From Setophaga petechia (taxonomy: Eukaryota > Chordata > Aves > Passeriformes > Parulidae), in NCBI GenBank assembly GCA_024362935.1, contig JANCRA010000040.1, positions 1,736,001 to 1,800,000 of the forward strand: 64,000 bases of DNA, given 5' to 3'. A program made the translations under genes and the position numbers. Positions 3,491-53,753 of this stretch are shown one piece after another. Each line of letters begins with the position of its first letter. Position 1 is the first letter of the stretch. The notes under the pieces are model-generated. The model made no database searches. It was not told where the DNA came from and was given only the letters and a program-made list of their open reading frames with translations.

Positions 3491-3515
3491 TGAATATGAA
3501 ATTAGGCTCTGTGGA

Positions 3516-9600: not shown

Positions 9601-12600
9601 CATTCTATCCATATTCATAGACAGCTGCTAAAGGGTCACACACACACCCAGAACTTACTGCGGTCCCAGAGAAATGGAGACTGGAATCCTCATTACAGGC
9701 ATGCTGACCGTACAGGTGCCTAGTCTTATCTGTGAAGTAACTCACCCCTGCTAGAGTCTGACTCATCTGATAAGTCCCCTCTCCATTTCAAGGGCCAATG
9801 CATTTAACCAGCCTCCTGGCTGCCATCACCAAAGCCTCTACTTCAGCTAGATGTTATGCTAATAGTGCAGCTACTCTCCACATCAAGATGGTTTAAAGTC
9901 TCTTCAGTCCTGGTCCTCACTTTGAAGGGCTTCAGAAATTCCCATGGTTAGCCTGAGGACCTCAGAGTTTAGAGAGCTCTCAAGTGGGTTATCAAGAGAC
10001 CAACAAATATTGTGCTTGCATTCCAAGACCTGTGCTGTCTTCTAACAACCCTGAGTTGACTGGGGCTTGGGCTTGTTTAATAAGCAGAAAAAAAACCAAA
10101 AACCAACCAAACAAAAACCCCCACCAATTAAACAAGAAAAGAAATTAAACATGTTCTCCAGATCAAGGCTGCTGTGCAGAATGGTGCATTATCACGACAT
10201 TTATACTGTGCCAGAAGCCCGGAGGGAGGAATGAGCACCACGTATTGGAAGAGCAATCTTCAAACATGTTTTATTCCTAAAGGGGTTTTTACACCACAGT
10301 TTACACAAGCTCCCTTCTCTCCTGCTTCCAATCAATACAGGTTGCCAGAAGGGGCAGAGGTAGAAGAAACGAAGTCAAGATCCAGAGGCATGAGTTCATG
10401 GACAATTGTTTATAGCTAGAAAAGGCATGCTTATAGGAATAATGCACTGCATTCACCCACCCCTTGGCTACCATCACTGTGAAAGAGGGCCCTTTTTTCC
10501 TCAGTCTAGTAAAGCACACAGGGAATATCAGTTAGATCCCCTCTGAAACAAAAGGCAAGTAGTTGCTGCCAACGTAATGGAACTTGGAAACACACAGGTG
10601 AATTCTCAGAGACAACTGGGGCAAAGGGACAAAGTTTTCCTCAACTTCTAAATCTACTATTGACATGGAAAGAGATACATCAGAAGACATCACTAAGCTT
10701 AGCTTCTACAAAGCTCTCAGCACCTCATTAAACCCTGCTGCTGTTACCAAAAAGGGAGGTACATCAGCACAGATATTAGGAGAATGCAGTTGTTCTAACA
10801 ATAATGTAAAAGACTTACACATCATCCTGAACCATTTTGGTGAAAGGCTGGCATGGGTTGAGTTCCTTGTCTGACTCAGGAGAAACAGCACCATGTTGAA
10901 GAAGAAGTTGTATTATTTTCTCATTTCCAGAAAAAGTAGCAACTGTAAGAGGGGTCCTAGGGCATCCAAGAGATTAGAGTAAATACATCAGCTTTTGAAA
11001 ACATTGCCTAGCCAAAACTTTAATTCCTCCTTGCTCCTTAAACAATTCATTTCCCCTCTCCTACAGGCAGAGTGAAGGCACAGCCAAATGCCTACAAATG
11101 TTAGAGAATTCAGGTATGTGGCACCTCAGGAAGCCTCCTGGACAACCACCTGCCCAGAGCAGACTCAGGGCCTGTGTGCCTGCATGTGCATGCACATGTG
11201 AACATTTTGCATGGCAAACAGTGCTTTCTTGCAGTCCTCAGTGTGGAAATCAGCCCCTGAAGAAAGCGACACCCAAGCCTGGGTCAGCTTTCACAAGTCA
11301 CACAGGAAATCCTTCTGGATGACTCCTGGTCCTTTTTCAAAGCTCATTCTTATGCCTCCCATCAATCCAACCCAAACAGTGCTAAGGAGCTCCACATGCA
11401 CTTTTGGCAAACCCGTTACCTAAAAACTTCATCCTGAGCATTCACGTCAGCTCCTTTTTCAAGAAGGAACTTGACCATTTCTTCATGGTTTTCAGTGATT
11501 GCCAGAGTAAGCGGAGTGTATCCCCACTGAAAGGAGAAATCATGTCTCTTAGAACAACAGAGAATTCGAGCAAGTTGACATGGGAAGAGCAGCTTTACCC
11601 AAAGTTCAAGCTTACCTTATTCTTAGCATCAATATCTGCACCGTACTCAAGTAACAGCTCCACTAGAGGTTTGCTAGAAACCCTGACAGCAAAGTGAAGG
11701 GCGGTGTTACCGTTTACACCTCTGTGGTCGTGGTTGGCACCATGTTCCAGCAGAATAGCTGCACAGTCCCTGTGCTGGCGCTCTCTTGCCGGGAAACAAG
11801 ACACAAAGGAGGAATACCTTCCAACATCTGTTTCTCACTGACAGAACTCCCGCACCTTTCCAAAACTGGAAAGTATGAATGCCATCCAAGATTAGAGAAC
11901 ATATGCCCCTTCTTGAACTTGACCATTTCTTCACGGTTTTCAGTGATTGCCAGAGTAAGCGGAGTGTATCCCCACTGAAAGGAGAAATCATGTCTCTTAG
12001 AACAACAGAGAATTCGAGCAAGTTGACATGGGAAGAGCAGCTTTACCCAAAGTTCAAGCTTACCTTATTCTTAGCATCAATATCTGCACCGTACTCAAGT
12101 AACAGCTCCACTAGAGGTTTGCTAGAAACCCTGACAGCAAAGTGAAGGGCGGTGTTACCGTTTACACCTCTGTGGTCGTGGTTGGCACCATGTTCCAGCA
12201 GAATAGCTGCACAGTCCCTGTGCTGGCGCTCTCTTGCCGGGAAACAAGACACAAAGGAGGAATACCTTCCAACATCTGTTTCTCACTGACAGAACTCCCG
12301 CACCTTTCCAAAACTGGAAAGTATGAATGCCATCCAAGATTAGAGAACATATGCCCCTTCTTGAACTTGACCATTTCTTCACGGTTTTCAGTGATTGCCA
12401 GAGTAAGCGGAGTGTATCCCCACTGAAAGGAGAAATCATGTCTCTTAGAACAACAGAGAATTCGAGCAAGTTGACATGGGAAGAGCAGCTTTACCCAAAG
12501 TTCAAGCTTACCTTATTCTTAGCATCAATATCTGCACCGTACTCAAGTAGCAGCTCCACTAGTGGTTTGCTGGAAACCCTGATGGCAAAGTGAAGGGCGG

Positions 12601-15600
12601 TGTTACCGTTGACCCCTCTGTGGTCGTGGTTGGCACCATGTTCCAGCAGAATAGCTGCACAGTCCCTGTGCTGGCGCTCTCTTGCCGGGAAACAAGACAC
12701 AAAGGAGGAATACCTTCCAACATCTGTTTCTCACTGACAGAACTCCCGCACCTTTCCAAAACTGGAAAGTATGAATGCCATCCAAGATTAGAGAACATAT
12801 GCCCCTTCTTGAACTTGACCATTTCTTCACGGTTTTCAGTGATTGCCAGAGTAAGCGGAGTGTATCCCCACTGAAAGGAGAAATCATGTCTCTTAGAACA
12901 ACAGAGAATTCGAGCAAGTTGACATGGGAAGAGCAGCTTTACCCAAAGTTCAAGCTTACCTTATTCTTAGCATCAATATCTGCACCGTACTCAAGCAACA
13001 GCTCCACTAGAGGTTTGCTAGAAACCCTGACAGCAAAGTGAAGGGCGGTGTTACCGTTTACACCTCTGTGGTCGTGGTTGGCACCATGTTCCAGCAGAAT
13101 AGCTGCACAGTCCCTGTGCTGGCGCTCTCTTGCCGGGAAACAAGACACAAAGGAGGAATACCTTCCAACATCTGTTTCTCACTGACAGAACTCCCGCACC
13201 TTTCCAAAACTGGAAAGTATGAATGCCATCCAAGATTAGAGAACATATGCCCCTTCTTGAACTTGACCATTTCTTCACGGTTTTCAGTGATTGCCAGAGT
13301 AAGCGGAGTGTATCCCCACTGAAAGGAGAAATCATGTCTCTTAGAACAACAGAGAATTCGAGCAAGTTGACATGGGAAGAGCAGCTTTACCCAAAGTTCA
13401 AGCTTACCTTATTCTTAGCATCAATATCTGCACCGTACTCAAGTAACAGCTCCACTAGAGGTTTGCTAGAAACCCTGACAGCAAAGTGAAGGGCGGTGTT
13501 ACCGTTTACACCTCTGTGGTCGTGGTTGGCACCATGTTCCAGCAGAATAGCTGCACAGTCCCTGTGCTGGCGCTCTCTTGCCGGGAAACAAGACACAAAG
13601 GAGGAATACCTTCCAACATCTGTTTCTCACTGACAGAACTCCCGCACCTTTCCAAAACTGGAAAGTATGAATGCCATCCAAGATTAGAGAACATATGCCC
13701 CTTCTTGAACTTGACCATTTCTTCACGGTTTTCAGTGATTGCCAGAGTAAGCGGAGTGTATCCCCACTGAAAGGAGAAATCATGTCTCTTAGAACAACAG
13801 AGAATTCGAGCAAGTTGACATGGGAAGAGCAGCTTTACCCAAAGTTCAAGCTTACCTTATTCTTAGCATCAATATCTGCACCGTACTCAAGTAACAGCTC
13901 CACTAGAGGTTTGCTAGAAACCCTGACAGCAAAGTGAAGGGCGGTGTTACCGTTTACACCTCTGTGGTCGTGGTTGGCACCATGTTCCAGCAGAATAGCT
14001 GCACAGTCCCTGTGCTGGCGCTCTCTTGCCGGGAAACAAGACACAAAGGAGGAATACCTTCCAACATCTGTTTCTCACTGACAGAACTCCCACACCTTTC
14101 CAAAACTGGAAAGTATGAATGCCATCCAAGATTAGAGAACATATGCCCCTTCTTGAACTTGACCATTTCTTCACGGTTTTCAGTGATTGCCAGAGTAAGC
14201 GGAGTGTATCCCCACTGAAAGGAGAAATCATGTCTCTTAGAACAACAGAGAATTCGAGCAAGTTGACATGGGAAGAGCAGCTTTACCCAAAGTTCAAGCT
14301 TACCTTATTCTTAGCATCAATATCTGCACCGTACTCAAGTAGCAGCTCCACTAGTGGTTTGCTGGAAACCCTGATGGCAAAGTGAAGGGCGGTGTTACCG
14401 TTGACCCCTCTGTGGTCGTGGTTGGCACCATGTTCCAGCAGAATAGCTGCACAGTCCCTGTGCTGGCGCTCTCTTGCCGGGAAACAAGACACAAAGGAGG
14501 AATACCTTCCAACATCTGTTTCTCACTGACAGAACTCCCGCACCTTTCCAAAACTGGAAAGTATGAATGCCATCCAAGATTAGAGAACATATGCCCCTTC
14601 TTGAACTTGACCATTTCTTCATGGTTTTCAGTGATTGCCAGAGTAAGCGGAGTGTATCCCCACTGAAAGGAGAAATCATGTCTCTTAGAACAACAGAGAA
14701 TTCGAGCAAGTTGACATGGGAAGAGCAGCTTTACCCAAAGTTCAAGCTTACCTTATTCTTAGCATCAATATCTGCACCGTACTCAAGTAGCAGCTCCACT
14801 AGTGGTTTGCTGGAAACCCTGATGGCAAAGTGAAGGGCGGTGTTACCGTTGACCCCTCTGTGGTCGTGGTTGGCACCATGTTCCAGCAGAATAGCTGCAC
14901 AGTCCCTGTGCTGGCGCTCTCTTGCCGGGAAACAAGACACAAAGGAGGAATACCTTCCAACATCTGTTTCTCACTGACAGAACTCCCGCACCTTTCCAAA
15001 ACTGGAAAGTATGAATGCCATCCAAGATTAGAGAACATATGCCCCTTCTTGAACTTGACCATTTCTTCACGGTTTTCAGTGATTGCCAGAGTAAGCGGAG
15101 TGTATCCCCACTGAAAGGAGAAATCATGTCTCTTAGAACAACAGAGAATTCGAGCAAGTTGACATGGGAAGAGCAGCTTTACCCAAAGTTCAAGCTTACC
15201 TTATTCTTAGCATCAATATCTGCACCGTACTCAAGTAGCAGCTCCACTAGTGGTTTGCTGGAAACCCTGATGGCAAAGTGAAGGGCGGTGTTACCGTTGA
15301 CCCCTCTGTGGTCGTGGTTGGCACCATGTTCCAGCAGAATAGCTGCACAGTCCCTGTGCTGGCGCTCTCTTGCCGGGAAACAAGACACAAAGGAGGAATA
15401 CCTTCCAACATCTGTTTCTCACTGACAGAACTCCCGCACCTTTCCAAAACTGGAAAGTATGAATGCCATCCAAGATTAGAGAACATATGCCCCTTCTTGA
15501 ACTTGACCATTTCTTCACGGTTTTCAGTGATTGCCAGAGTAAGCGGAGTGTATCCCCACTGAAAGGAGAAATCATGTCTCTTAGAACAACAGAGAATTCG

Positions 15601-18600
15601 AGCAAGTTGACATGGGAGAAGAGCAGCTTTACCCAAAGTTCAAGCTTACCTTATTCTTAGCATCAATATCTGCACCGTACTCAAGTAACAGCTCCACTAG
15701 AGGTTTGCTAGAAACCCTGACAGCAAAGTGAAGGGCGGTGTTACCGTTTACACCTCTGTGGTCGTGGTTGGCACCATGTTCCAGCAGAATAGCTGCACAG
15801 TCCCTGTGCTGGCGCTCTCTTGCCGGGAAACAAGACACAAAGGAGGAATACCTTCCAACATCTGTTTCTCACTGACAGAACTCCCGCACCTTTCCAAAAC
15901 TGGAAAGTATGAATGCCATCCAAGATTAGAGAACATATGCCCCTTCTTGAACTTGACCATTTCTTCACGGTTTTCAGTGATTGCCAGAGTAAGCGGAGTG
16001 TATCCCCACTGAAAGGAGAAATCATGTCTCTTAGAACAACAGAGAATTCGAGCAAGTTGACATGGGAAGAGCAGCTTTACCCAAAGTTCAAGCTTACCTT
16101 ATTCTTAGCATCAATATCTGCACCGTACTCAAGTAACAGCTCCACTAGAGGTTTGCTAGAAACCCTGACGGCAAAGTGAAGGGCGGTGTTACCGTTTACA
16201 CCTCTGTGGTCGTGGTTGGCACCATGTTCCAGCAGAATAGCTGCACAGTCCCTGTGCTGGCGCTCTCTTGCCGGGAAACAAGACACAAAGGAGGAATACC
16301 TTCCAACATCTGTTTCTCACTGACAGAACTCCCGCACCTTTCCAAAACTGGAAAGTATGAATGCCATCCAAGATTAGAGAACATATGCCCCTTCTTGAAC
16401 TTGACCATTTCTTCACGGTTTTCAGTGATTGCCAGAGTAAGCGGAGTGTATCCCCACTGAAAGGAGAAATCATGTCTCTTAGAACAACAGAGAATTCGAG
16501 CAAGTTGACATGGGAAGAGCAGCTTTACCCAAAGTTCAAGCTTACCTTATTCTTAGCATCAATATCTGCACCGTACTCAAGTAACAGCTCCACTAGAGGT
16601 TTGCTAGAAACCCTGACAGCAAAGTGAAGGGCGGTGTTACCGTTTACACCTCTGTGGTCGTGGTTGGCACCATGTTCCAGCAGAATAGCTGCACAGTCCC
16701 TGTGCTGGCGCTCTCTTGCCGGGAAACAAGACACAAAGGAGGAATACCTTCCAACATCTGTTTCTCACTGACAGAACTCCCGCACCTTTCCAAAACTGGA
16801 AAGTATGAATGCCATCCAAGATTAGAGAACATATGCCCCTTCTTGAACTTGACCATTTCTTCACGGTTTTCAGTGATTGCCAGAGTAAGCGGAGTGTATC
16901 CCCACTGAAAGGAGAAATCATGTCTCTTAGAACAACAGAGAATTCGAGCAAGTTGACATGGGAAGAGCAGCTTTACCCAAAGTTCAAGCTTACCTTATTC
17001 TTAGCATCAATATCTGCACCGTACTCAAGTAGCAGCTCCACTAGTGGTTTGCTGGAAACCCTGATGGCAAAGTGAAGGGCGGTGTTACCGTTGACCCCTC
17101 TGTGGTCGTGGTTGGCACCATGTTCCAGCAGAATAGCTGCACAGTCCCTGTGCTGGCGCTCTCTTGCCGGGAAACAAGACACAAAGGAGGAATACCTTCC
17201 AACATCTGTTTCTCACTGACAGAACTCCCGCACCTTTCCAAAACTGGAAAGTATGAATGCCATCCAAGATTAGAGAACATATGCCCCTTCTTGAACTTGA
17301 CCATTTCTTCACGGTTTTCAGTGATTGCCAGAGTAAGCGGAGTGTATCCCCACTGAAAGGAGAAATCATGTCTCTTAGAACAACAGAGAATTCGAGCAAG
17401 TTGACATGGGAAGAGCAGCTTTACCCAAAGTTCAAGCTTACCTTATTCTTAGCATCAATATCTGCACCGTACTCAAGTAACAGCTCCACTAGAGGTTTGC
17501 TAGAAACCCTGACAGCAAAGTGAAGGGCGGTGTTACCGTTTACACCTCTGTGGTCGTGGTTGGCACCATGTTCCAGCAGAATAGCTGCACAGTCCCTGTG
17601 CTGGCGCTCTCTTGCCGGGAAACAAGACACAAAGGAGGAATACCTTCCAACATCTGTTTCTCACTGACAGAACTCCCGCACCTTTCCAAAACTGGAAAGT
17701 ATGAATGCCATCCAAGATTAGAGAACATATGCCCCTTCTTGAACTTGACCATTTCTTCACGGTTTTCAGTGATTGCCAGAGTAAGCGGAGTGTATCCCCA
17801 CTGAAAGGAGAAATCATGTCTCTTAGAACAACAGAGAATTCGAGCAAGTTGACATGGGAAGAGCAGCTTTACCCAAAGTTCAAGCTTACCTTATTCTTAG
17901 CATCAATATCTGCACCGTACTCAAGTAGCAGCTCCACTAGTGGTTTGCTGGAAACCCTGATGGCAAAGTGAAGGGCGGTGTTACCGTTGACCCCTCTGTG
18001 GTCGTGGTTGGCACCATGTTCCAGCAGAATAGCTGCACAGTCCCTGTGCTGGCACTCTCTTGCCGGGAAACAAGACACAAAGGAGGAATACCTTCCAACA
18101 TCTGTTTCTCACTGACAGAACTCCCGCACCTTTCCAAAACTGGAAAGTATGAATGCCATCCAAGATTAGAGAACATATGCCCCTTCTTGAACTTGACCAT
18201 TTCTTCACGGTTTTCAGTGATTGCCAGAGTAAGCGGAGTGTATCCCCACTGAAAGGAGAAATCATGTCTCTTAGAACAACAGAGAATTCGAGCAAGTTGA
18301 CATGGGAAGAGCAGCTTTACCCAAAGTTCAAGCTTACCTTATTCTTAGCATCAATATCTGCACCGTACTCAAGTAACAGCTCCACTAGAGGTTTGCTAGA
18401 AACCCTGACAGCAAAGTGAAGGGCGGTGTTACCGTTTACACCTCTGTGGTCGTGGTTGGCACCATGTTCCAGCAGAATAGCTGCACAGTCCCTGTGCTGG
18501 CGCTCTCTTGCCGGGAAACAAGACACAAAGGAGGAATACCTTCCAACATCTGTTTCTCACTGACAGAACTCCCGCACCTTTCCAAAACTGGAAAGTATGA

Positions 18601-21600
18601 ATGCCATCCAAGATTAGAGAACATATGCCCCTTCTTGAACTTGACCATTTCTTCACGGTTTTCAGTGATTGCCAGAGTAAGCGGAGTGTATCCCCACTGA
18701 AAGGAGAAATCATGTCTCTTAGAACAACAGAGAATTCGAGCAAGTTGACATGGGAAGAGCAGCTTTACCCAAAGTTCAAGCTTACCTTATTCTTAGCATC
18801 AATATCTGCACCGTACTCAAGTAGCAGCTCCACTAGTGGTTTGCTGGAAACCCTGATGGCAAAGTGAAGGGCGGTGTTACCGTTGACCCCTCTGTGGTCG
18901 TGGTTGGCACCATGTTCCAGCAGAATAGCTGCACAGTCCCTGTGCTGGCGCTCTCTTGCCGGGAAACAAGACACAAAGGAGGAATACCTTCCAACATCTG
19001 TTTCTCACTGACAGAACTCCCGCACCTTTCCAAAACTGGAAAGTATGAATGCCATCCAAGATTAGAGAACATATGCCCCTTCTTGAACTTGACCATTTCT
19101 TCACGGTTTTCAGTGATTGCCAGAGTAAGCGGAGTGTATCCCCACTGAAAGGAGAAATCATGTCTCTTAGAACAACAGAGAATTCGAGCAAGTTGACATG
19201 GGAAGAGCAGCTTTACCCAAAGTTCAAGCTTACCTTATTCTTAGCATCAATATCTGCACCGTACTCAAGTAACAGCTCCACTAGAGGTTTGCTAGAAACC
19301 CTGACAGCAAAGTGAAGGGCGGTGTTACCGTTTACACCTCTGTGGTCGTGGTTGGCACCATGTTCCAGCAGAATAGCTGCACAGTCCCTGTGCTGGCGCT
19401 CTCTTGCCGGGAAACAAGACACAAAGGAGGAATACCTTCCAACATCTGTTTCTCACTGACAGAACTCCCGCACCTTTCCAAAACTGGAAAGTATGAATGC
19501 CATCCAAGATTAGAGAACATATGCCCCTTCTTGAACTTGACCATTTCTTCACGGTTTTCAGTGATTGCCAGAGTAAGCGGAGTGTATCCCCACTGAAAGG
19601 AGAAATCATGTCTCTTAGAACAACAGAGAATTCGAGCAAGTTGACATGGGAAGAGCAGCTTTACCCAAAGTTCAAGCTTACCTTATTCTTAGCATCAATA
19701 TCTGCACCGTACTCAAGTAGCAGCTCCACTAGTGGTTTGCTGGAAACCCTGATGGCAAAGTGAAGGGCGGTGTTACCGTTGACCCCTCTGTGGTCGTGGT
19801 TGGCACCATGTTCCAGCAGAATAGCTGCACAGTCCCTGTGCTGGCGCTCTCTTGCCGGGAAACAAGACACAAAGGAGGAATACCTTCCAACATCTGTTTC
19901 TCACTGACAGAACTCCCGCACCTTTCCAAAACTGGAAAGTATGAATGCCATCCAAGATTAGAGAACATATGCCCCTTCTTGAACTTGACCATTTCTTCAC
20001 GGTTTTCAGTGATTGCCAGAGTAAGCGGAGTGTATCCCCACTGAAAGGAGAAATCATGTCTCTTAGAACAACAGAGAATTCGAGCAAGTTGACATGGGAA
20101 GAGCAGCTTTACCCAAAGTTCAAGCTTACCTTATTCTTAGCATCAATATCTGCACCGTACTCAAGCAACAGCTCCACTAGAGGTTTGCTAGAAACCCTGA
20201 CGGCAAAGTGAAGGGCGGTGTTACCGTTTACACCTCTGTGGTCGTGGTTGGCACCATGTTCCAGCAGAATAGCTGCACAGTCCCTGTGCTGGCGCTCTCT
20301 TGCCGGGAAACAAGACACAAAGGAGGAATACCTTCCAACATCTGTTTCTCACTGACAGAACTCCCGCACCTTTCCAAAACTGGAAAGTATGAATGCCATC
20401 CAAGATTAGAGAACATATGCCCCTTCTTGAACTTGACCATTTCTTCACGGTTTTCAGTGATTGCCAGAGTAAGCGGAGTGTATCCCCACTGAAAGGAGAA
20501 ATCATGTCTCTTAGAACAACAGAGAATTCGAGCAAGTTGACATGGGAAGAGCAGCTTTACCCAAAGTTCAAGCTTACCTTATTCTTAGCATCAATATCTG
20601 CACCGTACTCAAGTAGCAGCTCCACTAGTGGTTTGCTGGAAACCCTGATGGCAAAGTGAAGGGCGGTGTTACCGTTGACCCCTCTGTGGTCGTGGTTGGC
20701 ACCATGTTCCAGCAGAATAGCTGCACAGTCCCTGTGCTGGCGCTCTCTTGCCGGGAAACAAGACACAAAGGAGGAATACCTTCCAACATCTGTTTCTCAC
20801 TGACAGAACTCCCGCACCTTTCCAAAACTGGAAAGTATGAATGCCATCCAAGATTAGAGAACATATGCCCCTTCTTGAACTTGACCATTTCTTCACGGTT
20901 TTCAGTGATTGCCAGAGTAAGCGGAGTGTATCCCCACTGAAAGGAGAAATCATGTCTCTTAGAACAACAGAGAATTCGAGCAAGTTGACATGGGAAGAGC
21001 AGCTTTACCCAAAGTTCAAGCTTACCTTATTCTTAGCATCAATATCTGCACCGTACTCAAGTAACAGCTCCACTAGAGGTTTGCTAGAAACCCTGACAGC
21101 AAAGTGAAGGGCGGTGTTACCGTTTACACCTCTGTGGTCGTGGTTGGCACCATGTTCCAGCAGAATAGCTGCACAGTCCCTGTGCTGGCGCTCTCTTGCC
21201 GGGAAACAAGACACAAAGGAGGAATACCTTCCAACATCTGTTTCTCACTGACAGAACTCCCGCACCTTTCCAAAACTGGAAAGTATGAATGCCATCCAAG
21301 ATTAGAGAACATATGCCCCTTCTTGAACTTGACCATTTCTTCACGGTTTTCAGTGATTGCCAGAGTAAGCGGAGTGTATCCCCACTGAAAGGAGAAATCA
21401 TGTCTCTTAGAACAACAGAGAATTCGAGCAAGTTGACATGGGAAGAGCAGCTTTACCCAAAGTTCAAGCTTACCTTATTCTTAGCATCAATATCTGCACC
21501 GTACTCAAGTAGCAGCTCCACTAGTGGTTTGCTGGAAACCCTGATGGCAAAGTGAAGGGCGGTGTTACCGTTGACCCCTCTGTGGTCGTGGTTGGCACCA

Positions 21601-33600: not shown

Positions 33601-36600
33601 GTACTCAAGTAGCAGCTCCACTAGTGGTTTGCTGGAAACCCTGATGGCAAAGTGAAGGGCGGTGTTACCGTTGACCCCTCTGTGGTCGTGGTTGGCACCA
33701 TGTTCCAGCAGAATAGCTGCACAGTCCCTGTGCTGGCGCTCTCTTGCCGGGAAACAAGACACAAAGGAGGAATACCTTCCAACATCTGTTTCTCACTGAC
33801 AGAACTCCCGCACCTTTCCAAAACTGGAAAGTATGAATGCCATCCAAGATTAGAGAACATATGCCCCTTCTTGAACTTGACCATTTCTTCACGGTTTTCA
33901 GTGATTGCCAGAGTAAGCGGAGTGTATCCCCACTGAAAGGAGAAATCATGTCTCTTAGAACAACAGAGAATTCGAGCAAGTTGACATGGGAAGAGCAGCT
34001 TTACCCAAAGTTCAAGCTTACCTTATTCTTAGCATCAATATCTGCACCGTACTCAAGTAGCAGCTCCACTAGTGGTTTGCTGGAAACCCTGATGGCAAAG
34101 TGAAGGGCGGTGTTACCGTTGACCCCTCTGTGGTCGTGGTTGGCACCATGTTCCAGCAGAATAGCTGCACAGTCCCTGTGCTGGCGCTCTCTTGCCGGGA
34201 AACAAGACACAAAGGAGGAATACCTTCCAACATCTGTTTCTCACTGACAGAACTCCCGCACCTTTCCAAAACTGGAAAGTATGAATGCCATCCAAGATTA
34301 GAGAACATATGCCCCTTCTTGAACTTGACCATTTCTTCACGGTTTTCAGTGATTGCCAGAGTAAGCGGAGTGTATCCCCACTGAAAGGAGAAATCATGTC
34401 TCTTAGAACAACAGAGAATTCGAGCAAGTTGACATGGGAAGAGCAGCTTTACCCAAAGTTCAAGCTTACCTTATTCTTAGCATCAATATCTGCACCGTAC
34501 TCAAGTAACAGCTCCACTAGAGGTTTGCTAGAAACCCTGACAGCAAAGTGAAGGGCGGTGTTACCGTTTACACCTCTGTGGTCGTGGTTGGCACCATGTT
34601 CCAGCAGAATAGCTGCACAGTCCCTGTGCTGGCGCTCTCTTGCCGGGAAACAAGACACAAAGGAGGAATACCTTCCAACATCTGTTTCTCACTGACAGAA
34701 CTCCCGCACCTTTCCAAAACTGGAAAGTATGAATGCCATCCAAGATTAGAGAACATATGCCCCTTCTTGAACTTGACCATTTCTTCACGGTTTTCAGTGA
34801 TTGCCAGAGTAAGCGGAGTGTATCCCCACTGAAAGGAGAAATCATGTCTCTTAGAACAACAGAGAATTCGAGCAAGTTGACATGGGAAGAGCAGCTTTAC
34901 CCAAAGTTCAAGCTTACCTTATTCTTAGCATCAATATCTGCACCGTACTCAAGTAGCAGCTCCACTAGTGGTTTGCTGGATACCCTGACGGCAAAGTGAA
35001 GGGCGGTGTTACCGTTGACCCCTCTGTGGTCGTGGTTGGCACCATGTTCCAGCAGAATAGCTGCACAGTCCCTGTGCTGGCGCTCTCTTGCCGGGAAACA
35101 AGACACAAAGGAGGAATACCTTCCAACATCTGTTTCTCACTGACAGAACTCCCGCACCTTTCCAAAACTGGAAAGTATGAATGCCATCCAAGATTAGAGA
35201 ACATATGCCCCTTCTTGAACTTGACCATTTCTTCACGGTTTTCAGTGATTGCCAGAGTAAGCGGAGTGTATCCCCACTGAAAGGAGAAATCATGTCTCTT
35301 AGAACAACAGAGAATTCGAGCAAGTTGACATGGGAAGAGCAGCTTTACCCAAAGTTCAAGCTTACCTTATTCTTAGCATCAATATCTGCACCGTACTCAA
35401 GTAACAGCTCCACTAGAGGTTTGCTAGAAACCCTGACAGCAAAGTGAAGGGCGGTGTTACCGTTTACACCTCTGTGGTCGTGGTTGGCACCATGTTCCAG
35501 CAGAATAGCTGCACAGTCCCTGTGCTGGCGTTCTCTTGCCGGGAAACAAGACACAAAGGAGGAATACCTTCCAACATCTGTTTCTCACTGACAGAACTCC
35601 CGCACCTTTCCAAAACTGGAAAGTATGAATGCCATCCAAGATTAGAGAACATATGCCCCTTCTTGAACTTGACCATTTCTTCACGGTTTTCAGTGATTGC
35701 CAGAGTAAGCGGAGTGTATCCCCACTGAAAGGAGAAATCATGTCTCTTAGAACAACAGAGAATTCGAGCAAGTTGACATGGGAAGAGCAGCTTTACCCAA
35801 AGTTCAAGCTTACCTTATTCTTAGCATCAATATCTGCACCGTACTCAAGTAACAGCTCCACTAGAGGTTTGCTAGAAACCCTGACAGCAAAGTGAAGGGC
35901 GGTGTTACCGTTTACACCTCTGTGGTCGTGGTTGGCACCATGTTCCAGCAGAATAGCTGCACAGTCCCTGTGCTGGCGCTCTCTTGCCGGGAAACAAGAC
36001 ACAAAGGAGGAATACCTTCCAACATCTGTTTCTCACTGACAGAACTCCCGCACCTTTCCAAAACTGGAAAGTATGAATGCCATCCAAGATTAGAGAACAT
36101 ATGCCCCTTCTTGAACTTGACCATTTCTTCACGGTTTTCAGTGATTGCCAGAGTAAGCGGAGTGTATCCCCACTGAAAGGAGAAATCATGTCTCTTAGAA
36201 CAACAGAGAATTCGAGCAAGTTGACATGGGAAGAGCAGCTTTACCCAAAGTTCAAGCTTACCTTATTCTTAGCATCAATATCTGCACCGTACTCAAGTAA
36301 CAGCTCCACTAGAGGTTTGCTAGAAACCCTGACAGCAAAGTGAAGGGCGGTGTTACCGTTTACACCTCTGTGGTCGTGGTTGGCACCATGTTCCAGCAGA
36401 ATAGCTGCACAGTCCCTGTGCTGGCGCTCTCTTGCCGGGAAACAAGACACAAAGGAGGAATACCTTCCAACATCTGTTTCTCACTGACAGAACTCCCGCA
36501 CCTTTCCAAAACTGGAAAGTATGAATGCCATCCAAGATTAGAGAACATATGCCCCTTCTTGAACTTGACCATTTCTTCACGGTTTTCAGTGATTGCCAGA

Positions 36601-39600
36601 GTAAGCGGAGTGTATCCCCACTGAAAGGAGAAATCATGTCTCTTAGAACAACAGAGAATTCGAGCAAGTTGACATGGGAAGAGCAGCTTTACCCAAAGTT
36701 CAAGCTTACCTTATTCTTAGCATCAATATCTGCACCGTACTCAAGTAGCAGCTCCACTAGTGGTTTGCTGGAAACCCTGATGGCAAAGTGAAGGGCGGTG
36801 TTACCGTTGACCCCTCTGTGGTCGTGGTTGGCACCATGTTCCAGCAGAATAGCTGCACAGTCCCTGTTCTGGCGCTCTCTTGCCGGGAAACAAGACACAA
36901 AGGAGGAATACCTTCCAACATCTGTTTCTCACTGACAGAACTCCCGCACCTTTCCAAAACTGGAAAGTATGAATGCCATCCAAGATTAGAGAACATATGC
37001 CCCTTCTTGAACTTGACCATTTCTTCACGGTTTTCAGTGATTGCCAGAGTAAGCGGAGTGTATCCCCACTGAAAGGAGAAATCATGTCTCTTAGAACAAC
37101 AGAGAATTCGAGCAAGTTGACATGGGAAGAGCAGCTTTACCCAAAGTTCAAGCTTACCTTATTCTTAGCATCAATATCTGCACCGTACTCAAGTAACAGC
37201 TCCACTAGAGGTTTGCTAGAAACCCTGACAGCAAAGTGAAGGGCGGTGTTACCGTTTACACCTCTGTGGTCGTGGTTGGCACCATGTTCCAGCAGAATAG
37301 CTGCACAGTCCCTGTGCTGGCGCTCTCTTGCCGGGAAACAAGACACAAAGGAGGAATACCTTCCAACATCTGTTTCTCACTGACAGAACTCCCGCACCTT
37401 TCCAAAACTGGAAAGTATGAATGCCATCCAAGATTAGAGAACATATGCCCCTTCTTGAACTTGACCATTTCTTCACGGTTTTCAGTGATTGCCAGAGTAA
37501 GCGGAGTGTATCCCCACTGAAAGGAGAAATCATGTCTCTTAGAACAACAGAGAATTCGAGCAAGTTGACATGGGAAGAGCAGCTTTACCCAAAGTTCAAG
37601 CTTACCTTATTCTTAGCATCAATATCTGCACCGTACTCAAGTAACAGCTCCACTAGAGGTTTGCTAGAAACCCTGACAGCAAAGTGAAGGGCGGTGTTAC
37701 CGTTTACACCTCTGTGGTCGTGGTTGGCACCATGTTCCAGCAGAATAGCTGCACAGTCCCTGTGCTGGCGCTCTCTTGCCGGGAAACAAGACACAAAGGA
37801 GGAATACCTTCCAACATCTGTTTCTCACTGACAGAACTCCCGCACCTTTCCAAAACTGGAAAGTATGAATGCCATCCAAGATTAGAGAACATATGCCCCT
37901 TCTTGAACTTGACCATTTCTTCACGGTTTTCAGTGATTGCCAGAGTAAGCGGAGTGTATCCCCACTGAAAGGAGAAATCATGTCTCTTAGAACAACAGAG
38001 AATTCGAGCAAGTTGACATGGGAAGAGCAGCTTTACCCAAAGTTCAAGCTTACCTTATTCTTAGCATCAATATCTGCACCGTACTCAAGTAACAGCTCCA
38101 CTAGAGGTTTGCTAGAAACCCTGACAGCAAAGTGAAGGGCGGTGTTACCGTTTACACCTCTGTGGTCGTGGTTGGCACCATGTTCCAGCAGAATAGCTGC
38201 ACAGTCCCTGTGCTGGCGCTCTCTTGCCGGGAAACAAGACACAAAGGAGGAATACCTTCCAACATCTGTTTCTCACTGACAGAACTCCCGCACCTTTCCA
38301 AAACTGGAAAGTATGAATGCCATCAAAGATTAGAGAACATATGCCCCTTCTTGAACTTGACCATTTCTTCACGGTTTTCAGTGATTGCCAGAGTAAGCGG
38401 AGTGTATCCCCACTGAAAGGAGAAATCATGTCTCTTAGAACAACAGAGAATTCGAGCAAGTTGACATGGGAAGAGCAGCTTTACCCAAAGTTCAAGCTTA
38501 CCTTATTCTTAGCATCAATATCTGCACCGTACTCAAGCAACAGCTCCACTAGAGGTTTGCTAGAAACCCTGACAGCAAAGTGAAGGGCGGTGTTACCGTT
38601 TACACCTCTGTGGTCGTGGTTGGCACCATGTTCCAGCAGAATAGCTGCACAGTCCCTGTGCTGGCGCTCTCTTGCCGGGAAACAAGACACAAAGGAGGAA
38701 TACCTTCCAACATCTGTTTCTCACTGACAGAACTCCCGCACCTTTCCAAAACTGGAAAGTATGAATGCCATCCAAGATTAGAGAACATATGCCCCTTCTT
38801 GAACTTGACCATTTCTTCACGGTTTTCAGTGATTGCAAGAGTAAGCGGAGTGTATCCCCACTGAAAGGAGAAATCATGTCTCTTAGAACAACAGAGAATT
38901 CGAGCAAGTTGACATGGGAAGAGCAGCTTTACCCAAAGTTCAAGCTTACCTTATTCTTAGCATCAATATCTGCACCGTACTCAAGTAACAGCTCCACTAG
39001 AGGTTTGCTAGAAACCCTGACAGCAAAGTGAAGGGCGGTGTTACCGTTTACACCTCTGTGGTCGTGGTTGGCACCATGTTCCAGCAGAATAGCTGCACAG
39101 TCCCTGTGCTGGCGCTCTCTTGCCGGGAAACAAGACACAAAGGAGGAATACCTTCCAACATCTGTTTCTCACTGACAGAACTCCCGCACCTTTCCAAAAC
39201 TGGAAAGTATGAATGCCATCCAAGATTAGAGAACATATGCCCCTTCTTGAACTTGACCATTTCTTCACGGTTTTCAGTGATTGCCAGAGTAAGCGGAGTG
39301 TATCCCCACTGAAAGGAGAAATCATGTCTCTTAGAACAACAGAGAATTCGAGCAAGTTGACATGGGAAGAGCAGCTTTACCCAAAGTTCAAGCTTACCTT
39401 ATTCTTAGCATCAATATCTGCACCGTACTCAAGTAGCAGCTCCACTAGTGGTTTGCTGGAAACCCTGATGGCAAAGTGAAGGGCGGTGTTACCGTTGACC
39501 CCTCTGTGGTCGTGGTTGGCACCATGTTCCAGCAGAATAGCTGCACAGTCCCTGTTCTGGCGCTCTCTTGCCGGGAAACAAGACACAAAGGAGGAATACC

Positions 39601-42600
39601 TTCCAACATCTGTTTCTCACTGACAGAACTCCCGCACCTTTCCAAAACTGGAAAGTATGAATGCCATCCAAGATTAGAGAACATATGCCCCTTCTTGAAC
39701 TTGACCATTTCTTCACGGTTTTCAGTGATTGCCAGAGTAAGCGGAGTGTATCCCCACTGAAAGGAGAAATCATGTCTCTTAGAACAACAGAGAATTCGAG
39801 CAAGTTGACATGGGAAGAGCAGCTTTACCCAAAGTTCAAGCTTACCTTATTCTTAGCATCAATATCTGCACCGTACTCAAGCAACAGCTCCACTAGAGGT
39901 TTGCTAGAAACCCTGACAGCAAAGTGAAGGGCGGTGTTACCGTTTACACCTCTGTGGTCGTGGTTGGCACCATGTTCCAGCAGAATAGCTGCACAGTCCC
40001 TGTGCTGGCGCTCTCTTGCCGGGAAACAAGACACAAAGGAGGAATACCTTCCAACATCTGTTTCTCACTGACAGAACTCCCGCACCTTTCCAAAACTGGA
40101 AAGTATGAATGCCATCCAAGATTAGAGAACATATGCCCCTTCTTGAACTTGACCATTTCTTCACGGTTTTCAGTGATTGCAAGAGTAAGCGGAGTGTATC
40201 CCCACTGAAAGGAGAAATCATGTCTCTTAGAACAACAGAGAATTCGAGCAAGTTGACATGGGAAGAGCAGCTTTACCCAAAGTTCAAGCTTACCTTATTC
40301 TTAGCATCAATATCTGCACCGTACTCAAGTAACAGCTCCACTAGAGGTTTGCTAGAAACCCTGACAGCAAAGTGAAGGGCGGTGTTACCGTTTACACCTC
40401 TGTGGTCGTGGTTGGCACCATGTTCCAGCAGAATAGCTGCACAGTCCCTGTGCTGGCGCTCTCTTGCCGGGAAACAAGACACAAAGGAGGAATACCTTCC
40501 AACATCTGTTTCTCACTGACAGAACTCCCGCACCTTTCCAAAACTGGAAAGTATGAATGCCATCCAAGATTAGAGAACATATGCCCCTTCTTGAACTTGA
40601 CCATTTCTTCACGGTTTTCAGTGATTGCCAGAGTAAGCGGAGTGTATCCCCACTGAAAGGAGAAATCATGTCTCTTAGAACAACAGAGAATTCGAGCAAG
40701 TTGACATGGGAAGAGCAGCTTTACCCAAAGTTCAAGCTTACCTTATTCTTAGCATCAATATCTGCACCGTACTCAAGTAGCAGCTCCACTAGTGGTTTGC
40801 TGGATACCCTGACGGCAAAGTGAAGGGCGGTGTTACCGTTGACCCCTCTGTGGTCGTGGTTGGCACCATGTTCCAGCAGAATAGCTGCACAGTCCCTGTG
40901 CTGGCGCTCTCTTGCCGGGAAACAAGACACAAAGGAGGAATACCTTCCAACATCTGTTTCTCACTGACAGAACTCCCGCACCTTTCCAAAACTGGAAAGT
41001 ATGAATGCCATCCAAGATTAGAGAACATATGCCCCTTCTTGAACTTGACCATTTCTTCACGGTTTTCAGTGATTGCCAGAGTAAGCGGAGTGTATCCCCA
41101 CTGAAAGGAGAAATCATGTCTCTTAGAACAACAGAGAATTCGAGCAAGTTGACATGGGAAGAGCAGCTTTACCCAAAGTTCAAGCTTACCTTATTCTTAG
41201 CATCAATATCTGCACCGTACTCAAGTAACAGCTCCACTAGAGGTTTGCTAGAAACCCTGACAGCAAAGTGAAGGGCGGTGTTACCGTTTACACCTCTGTG
41301 GTCGTGGTTGGCACCATGTTCCAGCAGAATAGCTGCACAGTCCCTGTGCTGGCGTTCTCTTGCCGGGAAACAAGACACAAAGGAGGAATACCTTCCAACA
41401 TCTGTTTCTCACTGACAGAACTCCCGCACCTTTCCAAAACTGGAAAGTATGAATGCCATCCAAGATTAGAGAACATATGCCCCTTCTTGAACTTGACCAT
41501 TTCTTCACGGTTTTCAGTGATTGCCAGAGTAAGCGGAGTGTATCCCCACTGAAAGGAGAAATCATGTCTCTTAGAACAACAGAGAATTCGAGCAAGTTGA
41601 CATGGGAAGAGCAGCTTTACCCAAAGTTCAAGCTTACCTTATTCTTAGCATCAATATCTGCACCGTACTCAAGTAACAGCTCCACTAGAGGTTTGCTAGA
41701 AACCCTGACAGCAAAGTGAAGGGCGGTGTTACCGTTTACACCTCTGTGGTCGTGGTTGGCACCATGTTCCAGCAGAATAGCTGCACAGTCCCTGTGCTGG
41801 CGCTCTCTTGCCGGGAAACAAGACACAAAGGAGGAATACCTTCCAACATCTGTTTCTCACTGACAGAACTCCCGCACCTTTCCAAAACTGGAAAGTATGA
41901 ATGCCATCCAAGATTAGAGAACATATGCCCCTTCTTGAACTTGACCATTTCTTCACGGTTTTCAGTGATTGCCAGAGTAAGCGGAGTGTATCCCCACTGA
42001 AAGGAGAAATCATGTCTCTTAGAACAACAGAGAATTCGAGCAAGTTGACATGGGAAGAGCAGCTTTACCCAAAGTTCAAGCTTACCTTATTCTTAGCATC
42101 AATATCTGCACCGTACTCAAGTAACAGCTCCACTAGAGGTTTGCTAGAAACCCTGACAGCAAAGTGAAGGGCGGTGTTACCGTTTACACCTCTGTGGTCG
42201 TGGTTGGCACCATGTTCCAGCAGAATAGCTGCACAGTCCCTGTGCTGGCGCTCTCTTGCCGGGAAACAAGACACAAAGGAGGAATACCTTCCAACATCTG
42301 TTTCTCACTGACAGAACTCCCGCACCTTTCCAAAACTGGAAAGTATGAATGCCATCCAAGATTAGAGAACATATGCCCCTTCTTGAACTTGACCATTTCT
42401 TCACGGTTTTCAGTGATTGCCAGAGTAAGCGGAGTGTATCCCCACTGAAAGGAGAAATCATGTCTCTTAGAACAACAGAGAATTCGAGCAAGTTGACATG
42501 GGAAGAGCAGCTTTACCCAAAGTTCAAGCTTACCTTATTCTTAGCATCAATATCTGCACCGTACTCAAGTAGCAGCTCCACTAGTGGTTTGCTGGAAACC

Positions 42601-45192
42601 CTGATGGCAAAGTGAAGGGCGGTGTTACCGTTGACCCCTCTGTGGTCGTGGTTGGCACCATGTTCCAGCAGAATAGCTGCACAGTCCCTGTTCTGGCGCT
42701 CTCTTGCCGGGAAACAAGACACAAAGGAGGAATACCTTCCAACATCTGTTTCTCACTGACAGAACTCCCGCACCTTTCCAAAACTGGAAAGTATGAATGC
42801 CATCCAAGATTAGAGAACATATGCCCCTTCTTGAACTTGACCATTTCTTCACGGTTTTCAGTGATTGCCAGAGTAAGCGGAGTGTATCCCCACTGAAAGG
42901 AGAAATCATGTCTCTTAGAACAACAGAGAATTCGAGCAAGTTGACATGGGAAGAGCAGCTTTACCCAAAGTTCAAGCTTACCTTATTCTTAGCATCAATA
43001 TCTGCACCGTACTCAAGTAACAGCTCCACTAGAGGTTTGCTAGAAACCCTGACAGCAAAGTGAAGGGCGGTGTTACCGTTTACACCTCTGTGGTCGTGGT
43101 TGGCACCATGTTCCAGCAGAATAGCTGCACAGTCCCTGTGCTGGCGCTCTCTTGCCGGGAAACAAGACACAAAGGAGGAATACCTTCCAACATCTGTTTC
43201 TCACTGACAGAACTCCCGCACCTTTCCAAAACTGGAAAGTATGAATGCCATCCAAGATTAGAGAACATATGCCCCTTCTTGAACTTGACCATTTCTTCAC
43301 GGTTTTCAGTGATTGCCAGAGTAAGCGGAGTGTATCCCCACTGAAAGGAGAAATCATGTCTCTTAGAACAACAGAGAATTCGAGCAAGTTGACATGGGAA
43401 GAGCAGCTTTACCCAAAGTTCAAGCTTACCTTATTCTTAGCATCAATATCTGCACCGTACTCAAGTAACAGCTCCACTAGAGGTTTGCTAGAAACCCTGA
43501 CAGCAAAGTGAAGGGCGGTGTTACCGTTTACACCTCTGTGGTCGTGGTTGGCACCATGTTCCAGCAGAATAGCTGCACAGTCCCTGTGCTGGCGCTCTCT
43601 TGCCGGGAAACAAGACACAAAGGAGGAATACCTTCCAACATCTGTTTCTCACTGACAGAACTCCCGCACCTTTCCAAAACTGGAAAGTATGAATGCCATC
43701 CAAGATTAGAGAACATATGCCCCTTCTTGAACTTGACCATTTCTTCACGGTTTTCAGTGATTGCCAGAGTAAGCGGAGTGTATCCCCACTGAAAGGAGAA
43801 ATCATGTCTCTTAGAACAACAGAGAATTCGAGCAAGTTGACATGGGAAGAGCAGCTTTACCCAAAGTTCAAGCTTACCTTATTCTTAGCATCAATATCTG
43901 CACCGTACTCAAGTAACAGCTCCACTAGAGGTTTGCTAGAAACCCTGACAGCAAAGTGAAGGGCGGTGTTACCGTTTACACCTCTGTGGTCGTGGTTGGC
44001 ACCATGTTCCAGCAGAATAGCTGCACAGTCCCTGTGCTGGCGCTCTCTTGCCGGGAAACAAGACACAAAGGAGGAATACCTTCCAACATCTGTTTCTCAC
44101 TGACAGAACTCCCGCACCTTTCCAAAACTGGAAAGTATGAATGCCATCCAAGATTAGAGAACATATGCCCCTTCTTGAACTTGACCATTTCTTCACGGTT
44201 TTCAGTGATTGCCAGAGTAAGCGGAGTGTATCCCCACTGAAAGGAGAAATCATGTCTCTTAGAACAACAGAGAATTCGAGCAAGTTGACATGGGAAGAGC
44301 AGCTTTACCCAAAGTTCAAGCTTACCTTATTCTTAGCATCAATATCTGCACCGTACTCAAGTAACAGCTCCACTAGAGGTTTGCTAGAAACCCTGACAGC
44401 AAAGTGAAGGGCGGTGTTACCGTTTACACCTCTGTGGTCGTGGTTGGCACCATGTTCCAGCAGAATAGCTGCACAGTCCCTGTGCTGGCGCTCTCTTGCC
44501 GGGAAACAAGACACAAAGGAGGAATACCTTCCAACATCTGTTTCTCACTGACAGAACTCCCGCACCTTTCCAAAACTGGAAAGTATGAATGCCATCCAAG
44601 ATTAGAGAACATATGCCCCTTCTTGAACTTGACCATTTCTTCACGGTTTTCAGTGATTGCCAGAGTAAGCGGAGTGTATCCCCACTGAAAGGAGAAATCA
44701 TGTCTCTTAGAACAACAGAGAATTCGAGCAAGTTGACATGGGAAGAGCAGCTTTACCCAAAGTTCAAGCTTACCTTATTCTTAGCATCAATATCTGCACC
44801 GTACTCAAGTAACAGCTCCACTAGAGGTTTGCTAGAAACCCTGACAGCAAAGTGAAGGGCGGTGTTACCGTTTACACCTCTGTGGTCGTGGTTGGCACCA
44901 TGTTCCAGCAGAATAGCTGCACAGTCCCTGTGCTGGCGCTCTCTTGCCGGGAAACAAGACACAAAGGAGGAATACCTTCCAACATCTGTTTCTCACTGAC
45001 AGAACTCCCGCACCTTTCCAAAACTGGAAAGTATGAATGCCATCCAAGATTAGAGAACATATGCCCCTTCTGCATACCTTCATTAGTGGTGATTTTTTCA
45101 GTTTGTCACAAGGGTTTAGCTTGCACTTCTTTTCTACCAGAAACTGAACAACATCTGCATGGCCATTTATGCAAGCAAGATGCAGAGGAGTC
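3516..45192 (-). CDS. ANKRD26/POTE-like ankyrin-repeat and coiled-coil gene, 5' incomplete, span of recognised exons
   Basis: The exons listed separately join into one minus-strand gene. The N-terminal part is ankyrin repeats with the exon layout of the ANKRD26/POTE family: repeats ending GADIDAKNK, then a TPL..LA repeat, then another TPL repeat. The middle has repeated small exons ending in SWDSE or PWDSE, and the C-terminal part is predicted coiled coil. In this family the ankyrin part binds partner proteins and the coiled coil mediates assembly; the cellular role here is unknown. Phases agree at every junction tested except around 7439-7542. Exons before 45192 are missing from view: an LTR fragment begins 22 bp beyond the acceptor. 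The gene is extraordinary in containing a 75-unit array of one of its own exons. Whether it is expressed cannot be told from sequence. Confidence 0.7.
3831..4000 (-). CDS. Coiled-coil exon
   Basis: Exon of 170 bp with acceptor GACAG and donor GTAAAA, phase 0 in and phase 2 out. It encodes 56 residues starting LKDLKEPLNK and ending QLEERIQR across the junction, charged and helix-forming, in keeping with the family's C-terminal coiled coil. Its phase 2 end matches the one-base start of the exon at 3639. Confidence 0.65.
4236..4871. mobile_element. Avian ERVL-type solo LTR with a 5-bp target duplication
   Basis: The left end is TGTCATGG and the right end CCATGACGC, an imperfect terminal inverted repeat. 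TTGGG occurs immediately outside on both sides (4231-4235 and 4872-4876), the 5-bp duplication expected of ERVL integration. The last two bases are GC rather than CA, probably mutated. No internal genes are present, so this is a solo LTR in an intron of the ankyrin gene. Confidence 0.65.
5239..5345 (-). CDS. Candidate helical exon
   Basis: A minus-strand open stretch of 107 bp sits between GGCAG (acceptor) and GTGTAA (donor), phase 0 in and phase 2 out. It encodes a charged helix that contains INSRKEQKLLLEKLE. It would fit between the exon at 6347 and the one at 3639, but not in series with 3831-4000 unless a weaker donor (AGG/GTGTGG) is used, so the two may be alternatives. It could be a relic. 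4877-5238 shows no feature. Confidence 0.4.
5455..5935 (+). mobile_element. CR1 LINE 3' end
   Basis: This has the characteristic avian CR1 3' sequence: the CTCTGCTCTTGTGAGACCCC block, AGAGGAGGGCCACAAAGA, CTGGAACACCTCTCCCATGG, TAGTGACAGG(T)CAAGGGG and the CAAGCTGTCCAGAGGAG block in the expected order. It is 5' truncated, as most CR1 copies are, and diverged, with the terminal ATTCTATG repeats lost. It lies in an intron on the opposite strand to the ankyrin gene. Confidence 0.9.
6347..6453 (-). CDS. Module 1 exon x (PWDSE motif)
   Basis: Acceptor CTTTTCTTAG and donor GTACCT, 107 bp, phase 1 in and phase 0 out. The 35 codons are Glu/Lys-rich and end NDSPWDSE, a motif typical of the linker in ANKRD26/POTE proteins. 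Its phase 0 end joins the coiled-coil exon at 4000 in frame. Confidence 0.65.
6568..6670 (-). CDS. Module 1 exon y
   Basis: Acceptor TTGCACAG and donor GTAGTT, 103 bp, phase 0 in and phase 1 out. It starts TESEGEDKVSDAVQLPAA. It is homologous to the exons at 8310 and 7439. Confidence 0.6.
7266..7321 (-). CDS. Module 2 exon x (SWDSE motif)
   Basis: Acceptor TTCTTAG and donor GTACC, 56 bp, phase 1 in and phase 0 out, ending YDNSWDSE. It is shorter than its module 1 homologue because the Glu-rich middle is missing. Confidence 0.6.
7439..7542 (-). pseudogene. Module 2 exon y, frameshifted
   Basis: Same splice signals as the other y exons (CACACAG and GTAATT), but 104 bp long instead of 103. The extra base makes its phase 2 end incompatible with the following x exon. 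A transcript skipping both module 2 exons stays in frame (8126 joins 6670, both phase 0). Confidence 0.55.
8126..8193 (-). CDS. Module 3 exon x
   Basis: Acceptor TTTCTTAG and donor GTACCT, 68 bp, phase 1 in and phase 0 out. The 22 codons are acidic and end SSWGSK, a diverged form of SWDSE. Confidence 0.6.
8310..8412 (-). CDS. Module 3 exon y
   Basis: Acceptor TTGCACAG and donor GTAATT, 103 bp, phase 0 in and phase 1 out. It is Arg-rich, beginning TDPKGRRKVRAS, and follows the exon at 8990 in frame. Confidence 0.6.
8990..9051 (-). CDS. Module 4 exon x
   Basis: Acceptor TTTTGTTAG and donor GTACC, 62 bp, phase 1 in and phase 0 out. It is charged (AEGAEKKEDK) and ends CNPE where the others end WDSE. 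Confidence 0.6.
9169..9273 (-). CDS. Module 4 exon y, first of the series
   Basis: Acceptor TTTCTTAG and donor GTAATT, 105 bp, phase 1 at both ends. It is Lys/Ala-rich (APKEAAAKKKG). Unlike the other y exons it enters in phase 1, which matches the exon at 9430. Its 5' half differs from the other y exons, so it may be an x/y hybrid. Confidence 0.55.
9430..9512 (-). CDS. Linker exon after the ankyrin domain
   Basis: Acceptor CTGTCTTTAG and donor GTAAGA, 83 bp, phase 2 in and phase 1 out, encoding 27 whole codons beginning IANEKMWSSC. The phases match the exons on both sides. I see no domain. 9513-10818 contains an A/C-rich simple tract (10085-10140) and otherwise nothing recognisable. Confidence 0.55.
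10819..10956 (-). CDS. Ankyrin-repeat exon following exon B
   Basis: Acceptor CCCTAG and donor GTAAGT, 138 bp, phase 2 in and phase 2 out. Its first base completes the Arg codon begun at the end of exon B. It encodes one ankyrin repeat, TPLTVATFSGNEKIIQLLLQ followed by HGA, then a linker of about 20 residues. It is the last ankyrin repeat I can see before the linker exons. Confidence 0.8.
11420..11526 (-). CDS. Ankyrin exon B, the only complete copy
   Basis: Acceptor CCTTTCAG and donor GTAACG, 107 bp, phase 0 in and phase 2 out. It encodes WGYTPLTLAITENHEEMVKF, then LLEKGADVNAQDEVF: one ankyrin repeat that continues straight into the exon at 10956. The array begins inside it: bases 11467-11526 are repeated in each unit, while 11420-11466 (the last 15 codons and donor) occur only here. 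Most array copies read NREEM rather than NHEEM. Confidence 0.85.
11467..45071 (-). repeat. 75-unit, 448-bp tandem array of an ankyrin exon segment
   Basis: The array is 33,605 bp: 75 units of 448 bp with three 2-bp insertions (near 15617, 25027 and 32197), less one base. Each unit, in transcription order, holds about 130 bp of intron, exon A (165-174 bp), an intron of about 90 bp, then the first 60 bp of exon B. The unit junction joins exon B after its MVKF codons to a point six bases inside the intron that follows the exon at 45078, with one filler base. Outside the array both parent sequences are present once and intact (11420-11466 on the left, 45072 onward on the right). So the unit is a slice of the gene, amplified in place. 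Units are near-identical by eye. Confidence 0.97.
11616..44947 (-). CDS. Exon A, 75 open copies within the array
   Basis: Copy n counted from the left starts at 11616+448(n-1), plus 2 from copy 10, 4 from copy 31 and 6 from copy 47. The first transcribed copy is 44774-44938 (to 44947 if three more codons are included). Each encodes CAAILLEHGAN, then a full ankyrin repeat from GNTALHFAV to GADIDAKNK, and ends AAG at a GTAAGC donor. All 75 are free of stops. Phase is 0 at both ends and length divisible by three, so A-to-A splicing would keep the frame. Before the codon where the family's exon normally begins (Ala), the bases are CG rather than AG. The in-frame AG available is three codons further in (AGAGAG then CGC); nearer AGs would shift the frame. 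Confidence 0.85.
45078..45192 (-). CDS. Ankyrin exon upstream of the array
   Basis: Acceptor TTTCTAG and donor GTATGC, 115 bp, phase 2 in and phase 0 out. It encodes TPLHLACINGHADVVQFLVE followed by KKCKLNPCDKLKKSPLMK, an almost textbook ANKRD26/POTE-family repeat. The single copy lies just outside the array, whose edge is only six bases into its following intron. The preceding exon is not identifiable. An LTR terminus begins 22 bp upstream of the acceptor, leaving a short polypyrimidine tract. Confidence 0.88.
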
Positions 45193-46450: not shown

Positions 46451-46462
46451 TCTCCCCCTACT
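46451..46462 (-). promoter_or_regulatory. Polypurine tract
   Basis: Minus-strand AGTAGGGGGAGA directly abuts the U3 start of the 3' LTR, as required for plus-strand DNA priming in reverse transcription. Confidence 0.85.
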
Positions 46463-46538
46463 TTACATAAAAAAAAACAAAGGGAGATTGGAAAGAATAC
46501 AACTGGGAAGAAATTTGAGGAAAAAAGTCCTTTGGGTG

Positions 46539-47886: not shown

Positions 47887-47961
47887 GGCTGGGACTCGGG
47901 GTACTAAAACATCAAAGAGAACATATAAAGTAATGAATTGCTTGCCTCGTGAAAAGGTAGT

Positions 47962-51290: not shown

Positions 51291-51292
51291 GG

Positions 51293-53730: not shown

Positions 53731-53748
53731 GCCCCACGTTGGGCACCA
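53731..53748 (-). promoter_or_regulatory. Primer-binding site, tRNA-Lys type
   Basis: Minus-strand TGGTGCCCAACGTGGGGC matches the 3' end complement of the tRNA-Lys(1,2) class with one mismatch (T for C at position 4). It lies five bases from the 5' LTR. This supports a class II 'K' assignment. 53287-53730 is the untranslated leader. Confidence 0.85.
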
Positions 53749-53753
53749 GCAGC

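Follow-up and report, generated by a model that had tools for sequence, protein, structure and literature searches.

A gene resembling ANKRD7 in the passerine Setophaga petechia contains, between its single-copy exons, 75 head-to-tail units of a slice of itself. The units occupy 11467-45071 of the window, as we call the whole 64,000-nucleotide stretch of DNA analysed here, and the gene lies on its minus strand. The amplified slice looks non-coding despite every exon copy being open: the acceptor of the amplified exon is lost, and the join between units fuses exon pieces into stop-carrying exons. We consider it probable that this passerine ANKRD7-like gene has acquired a non-coding intragenic satellite and is most likely a copy that recently became null or nearly so, an explanation that starts from features visible in the assembly itself, namely the array, its sites, frames and stops, and its unit types.

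Results

The array is built from a slice of the gene

In the one assembly from which its length and copy number are taken, Tandem Repeats Finder reports a single array at 11467-45071 (period 448, 75.0 copies, 99% matches). A script located 75 unit anchors, spaced by 448 bp in 71 of the 74 intervals and by 450 bp in the other three, the longer spacing being due to a GA insertion in intron 2, which measures 91 bp in 3 of the 75 units and 89 bp elsewhere. Each unit comprises intron 1 except for its initial bases, the 174-nt exon A, intron 2 and 60 nt from the start of exon B. Internal units are joined as ...GTCAAGTTC|AAGAAGGGGC, with almost no homology to either single-copy sequence at the break. 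There are 17 distinct sequences among the 75 units, the two commonest being represented by 28 and 19 copies, and one of the 17 differs from the commonest solely in its last base, at the array end. Searching the rest of the window for the unit gave nothing beyond chance matches of 15-21 bp. Inside the array, no open frame reaches 150 codons.

The sequence-only reading of this DNA had described a slice of the gene (intron, exon A, intron, part of exon B) amplified in place to 75 near-identical copies. The copy number and similarity, the composition of the unit and the position within the gene are confirmed here in the sequence: the flanking exons lie where it had placed them, at 45078-45192 and 10819-10956, and the best-matching sparrow protein (P0001, see below) runs in frame through both.

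Exons and identity of the gene

All the exons that we matched are on the minus strand. Exon 2, single-copy (45078-45192; RTPLHLAC...SPLMK), has the acceptor tttctag and the donor GTATGC, and corresponds to residues 51-89 of P0001 (92%). The array follows, from the rightmost exon A (44774-44947; 174 nt, 58 open codons) to the leftmost (11616-11789), in which 56 of 58 residues are the same as in P0001 (ARER for AVEH). The sole complete exon B (11420-11526, donor GTAACG) lies across the array end. Beyond it come the next single-copy ankyrin exon (10819-10956; P0001 residues 183-229, 94%) and a following exon (9430-9512, IANEKMWSSCYK...), placed by comparison with P0001 and by inspection of its boundaries. 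Farther downstream, a song sparrow protein (P0255) matches two open pieces around an intron at 6344-6673 (residues 253-324), an exon at 3830-4003 (residues 323-380, 90%) and a last stretch at 3505-3641, which reaches its C terminus (residues 380-425). The matched exons outside the array are all open, so this is no long-decayed gene. The junctions of exon 2, exon A and exon B are all in phase 0. The downstream exons are also spanned by direct repeats of about 0.9-1 kb, 68-71% alike (6090-9173), an old, earlier round of exon duplication in the same gene.

A 178-aa query of joined exons, in which exon A was read from GCA despite the missing AG in front of it, showed 95% identity to P0001, the ankyrin repeat domain-containing protein 7 of Zonotrichia albicollis; the next 22 matches were mostly passerine ANKR7 entries. 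On this evidence the locus is an ANKRD7-like gene whose ankyrin exons are homologous to those of ANKRD7 in order and frame. It had been assigned earlier to the ANKRD26/POTE family, an assignment that we do not retain: the best protein match is instead the sparrow ANKRD7 and, judged by names, the top named matches are ANKRD7, POTE-like names being attached in public annotation to some of the weaker bird matches.

We take P0255, from Melospiza melodia maxima, as the product of what is probably the same locus. Its residues 2-20 match 54930-54874, upstream of a retrovirus, with 18 of 19 positions identical, the remaining one being a stop in the window, and beyond these residues it matches exon A, exon B and the 3' exons down to 3505. 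Against this reading, P0255 lacks exon 2 and the 10819-10956 exon, its residues 198-226 are unmatched and some of its middle matches are only about 50% identical. Zonotrichia albicollis and Melospiza melodia maxima both belong to the Passerellidae. In P0001 and P0255 exon A is single and intact, and its sole difference from the commonest array copy is AVEH versus ARER. The N terminus or exon 1 of P0001 and of a starling protein (P0241) gave chance matches only within the window with the array masked except for one unit; the first exon of ANKRD7 may lie beyond the window. In P0016 (Lanius ludovicianus ANKR7), a five-residue insert, CRRGI, is located at the exon 2/exon A join, and it resembles what would be translated if the beginning of this window's intron 1 were read through.

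Splice sites of the amplified exons

Introns normally end in AG. In relatives, exon A starts with A-V right after exon 2, each of the two columns reaching 90% conservation or more when the window sequence is aligned with 30 of the 120 homologues listed. At the expected start in the window we read TTTCCCG|GCAAGAGAG in 73 copies and TTTCCCG|GCAAGAGAA in 2 (residues A-R), so that TTTCCCG stands where the AG is due, the rightmost copy included, and AG is present in 0 of 75. Exon A is open in all 75 copies and the donor AAG|GTAAGC is kept in all 75, just as the sequence-only reading had stated; what that description missed is the loss of the acceptor in every copy and the 74 internal exon B pieces devoid of a donor.

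AGs remain within exon A and ahead of it. Splice sites were scored on a rough scale with approximate weights. On this scale the acceptors of exon 2 and exon B score 6.9 and 7.8, those of two later exons 5.8 and 12.1, and the five in-frame open AGs within exon A -2.7, -5.5, -4.0, -4.4 and -2.8. The higher-scoring AGs are out of frame (45023, 6.1; 44942, 4.3; 44840, 9.0; 44831, 4.0), and one at 45013 (5.1) is in frame but leads to a stop.

The exon B acceptor is intact in 75 of 75 units, and the 74 internal pieces of exon B end before its donor. Since an internal exon B thus keeps an acceptor without a donor, and since exon A has the strongest of the downstream donors (score 11.2), the array should naturally yield a 359-nt chimeric exon made of 60 nt of exon B, the rest of intron 1 and exon A (for example 44326-44684). 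Read in phase 0, this chimeric exon contains a premature stop in 74 of 74 cases. Two weaker donors lie inside it: use of the one scoring 7.8 would shift the frame, and use of the other, a cryptic site at 44429 (3.2), would give a shorter in-frame chimera.

Variation among the units

Units differ from one another by 0.86% on average, and by 0.13% once seven linked sites are left out. These seven differences, all within 65 bp of exon A, separate the two main unit types, which are identical over the rest of their length; six are synonymous and one exchanges V and I. The probability that seven sites would be so tightly placed by chance is about 6e-05, and that of one or no amino-acid change about 0.005. 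We read the tract as probable gene conversion from a paralogue under constraint, the putative donor. Outside the seven linked sites, exon A varies at five sites only (three synonymous, two missense), and outside exon A, with the last base at the array end excluded, we counted four variable sites and one insertion.

We considered the openness of exon A as evidence of selection and rejected it. The copies are nearly identical, few sites vary and only 2.9% of single-base changes are nonsense, and therefore the open copies are weak evidence of selection. Open exon copies should not be taken as evidence of function.

A run of 14 types recurs at units 15 and 32 (numbered from 0 at the left), versus a longest repeated run of 9 (mean 4.6) in 2000 shuffles. 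The single-lag similarity of unit types was a less clear signal: its best value, 0.41 at lag 17, was not above all shuffles, which gave a mean maximum of 0.32 and a highest value of 0.45. Unequal exchange of blocks is expected to give a recurring run of this kind, and we read the 14-type run as a sign of such exchange.

Discussion

How could the array have formed, and what would become of the transcript? From the features described above we infer an order of events, the conversion, the splicing outcome and the loss of function. A 448-bp segment running from just after the donor of intron 1 through exon A and intron 2 to the first 60 nt of exon B would have been duplicated in tandem, the founding junction involving almost no homology. 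The array would then have expanded to about 75 copies and been homogenised by unequal exchange and gene conversion. Because the acceptor change is present in every copy, it either occurred in the founder unit or spread to all copies later. In the mechanism that we propose, the acceptor of exon A would already have been lost in the founder unit, for which reason the copies would not serve as coding exons.

Each internal unit would be seen by the splicing machinery as the 359-nt chimeric exon with its stop codon, and transcripts using the array sites would be mostly stop-carrying. Splicing of exon 2 to the last of the 75 identical exon B acceptors would keep the frame and omit the 58 exon A residues. 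Since the exon-A-skipped product still matches ankyrin profiles, some residual function is possible. In mouse, Ankrd7 knockout males are reported as fertile and the protein as located in Sertoli cell nuclei (PMC6735960); by analogy, loss of the gene may be tolerated.

The proposal that the array makes a giant or length-variable ankyrin protein, also put forward in the sequence-only reading, is not supported by this analysis. Exon A is open with its GTAAGC donor in 75 of 75 copies, its 174 nt are a multiple of three and it contains a few in-frame AGs, but in-frame splicing of many copies seems to us very improbable: the AG at the exon start is missing from all 75, AGs with better scores either lie out of frame or run into a stop, and 74 of 74 chimeric exons carry a premature stop. 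Moreover, if exon A copies were joined end to end, every 58 residues would include a single full 33-residue repeat (residues 26-58), making an uneven solenoid. Queries of ten and three exon A copies matched 4193 and 5650 proteins respectively, of which the best 120 of each were considered. Among the 338 proteins drawn from the listed best 120 of each of three protein database searches, at least two exon-A-like stretches occurred in 31, none at more than 54% identity, and no bird-labelled protein was among them. Given the loss of the usual splice site from the amplified exon, disruption of the gene or skipping of the array is more likely than the production of a giant protein. The other suggestion made earlier, that of an intronic satellite harmful to the gene, fits better, with splicing as the predicted mechanism. 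A more serious competitor, although still one that we judge unlikely, is a working gene in which the whole array is treated as one intron of about 33.6 kb, exon 2 being joined to the final exon B to give an in-frame protein without the exon A residues. The phase-0 meeting of exon 2, exon A and exon B, which lets skipping keep the frame, the open downstream exons and the ankyrin-profile matches of the skip product are what recommend it; it has to face 75 identical exon B acceptors in competition, of which the last alone leads to a real donor, and the exon 1 of relatives was not found within the window.

Two further possibilities appear to us about equally doubtful, and both less likely than the single-intron gene. 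The array might supply 74 poison exons, derived from exons of the gene itself, in a bank of variable length that sets gene dose; if so, more copies would mean more transcripts with a premature stop, and gene dose would differ between individual birds. Alternatively, the copy number could have arisen in assembly, through inflation or misjoining of an array that exists but is much shorter. A stretch of 33.6 kb of units at 0.86% average difference is hard to assemble, and a 14-unit block recurs exactly; against this, the 17 distinct units in irregular order, with the long recurring run interrupted by a one-unit difference, look more like block exchange than like a loop in the assembly graph. Least credible of all is retention of the unit for the sake of a small structured RNA encoded in its introns. 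Short repeated units sited in the introns of a gene do recall snoRNA host arrays, but Rfam gave 0 matches in the window at gathering scores and a single match within 11400-12500, whose 14.2 bits fall short of the cut-off of 50. A snoRNA-type host array was thus rejected, Rfam revealing no known structured RNA per unit. A scan of two units for sigma-70 promoters and terminators, which is not meant for a bird gene, found 0.

Exon arrays within genes are familiar mainly as coding length polymorphisms. The nearest described system documented for this array is the human LPA kringle IV type 2 (KIV-2), which is an intragenic coding VNTR with units of about 5550 bp, two translated exons per unit, and unit types marked by mostly synonymous exon differences plus more than 100 intronic sites (PMC7613587). 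As in KIV-2, near-identical exon-bearing units are arranged in tandem within one gene, and unit types are set by mostly synonymous differences in the exon. Unlike KIV-2 as described there, the present unit is 448 bp long, its exon is without a normal acceptor, exon B is cut and the introns are identical between the two main unit types. Each intragenic unit does include an exon, but in-frame working splice sites were not found, and since the KIV-2-like architecture comes without in-frame splicing, we do not file the locus as a coding VNTR. Nor did the open-licence papers listed by literature searches, judged by title and start of abstract, yield a description of this array.

The single-copy form of ANKRD7 (P0001, P0255) shares with the window the order and sequence of exons A and B, but has exon A once, starting with A-V, whereas here it is found in 75 copies without an acceptor. 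Intronic satellite and macrosatellite arrays are, as a general kind, tandem and homogenised. The present array resembles them in its homogenised tandem units, its block duplication and its want of long open frames, and departs from them in that its unit is itself a piece of the host gene, in which acceptor and donor signals are intact. Because it retains these signals, the unit could interfere directly with splicing, and the locus offers a natural setting in which to measure the number of competing splice sites that a gene tolerates.

Other features of the window

Upstream of exon 2, an endogenous retrovirus on the minus strand lies within 28-bp repeats (45793-54398). Its LTRs (45800-46450 and 53761-54398) are identical in 634 of 651 columns with 4 mismatches, and being so nearly identical they make the element look young. 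A direct repeat, 95% identical, links 1-1174 with 56817-57966; it reaches the window edge, its copies are about 56.8 kb apart, and it could reflect head-to-tail duplication of the entire locus, or else be an interspersed repeat. It is adjoined by a segment (1174-1462) that is 77-81% identical to one end of both retroviral LTRs. Finally, inspection by eye of the minus strand at 58260-58440 showed an open stretch between splice-like sites, perhaps part of another gene or of a relic.
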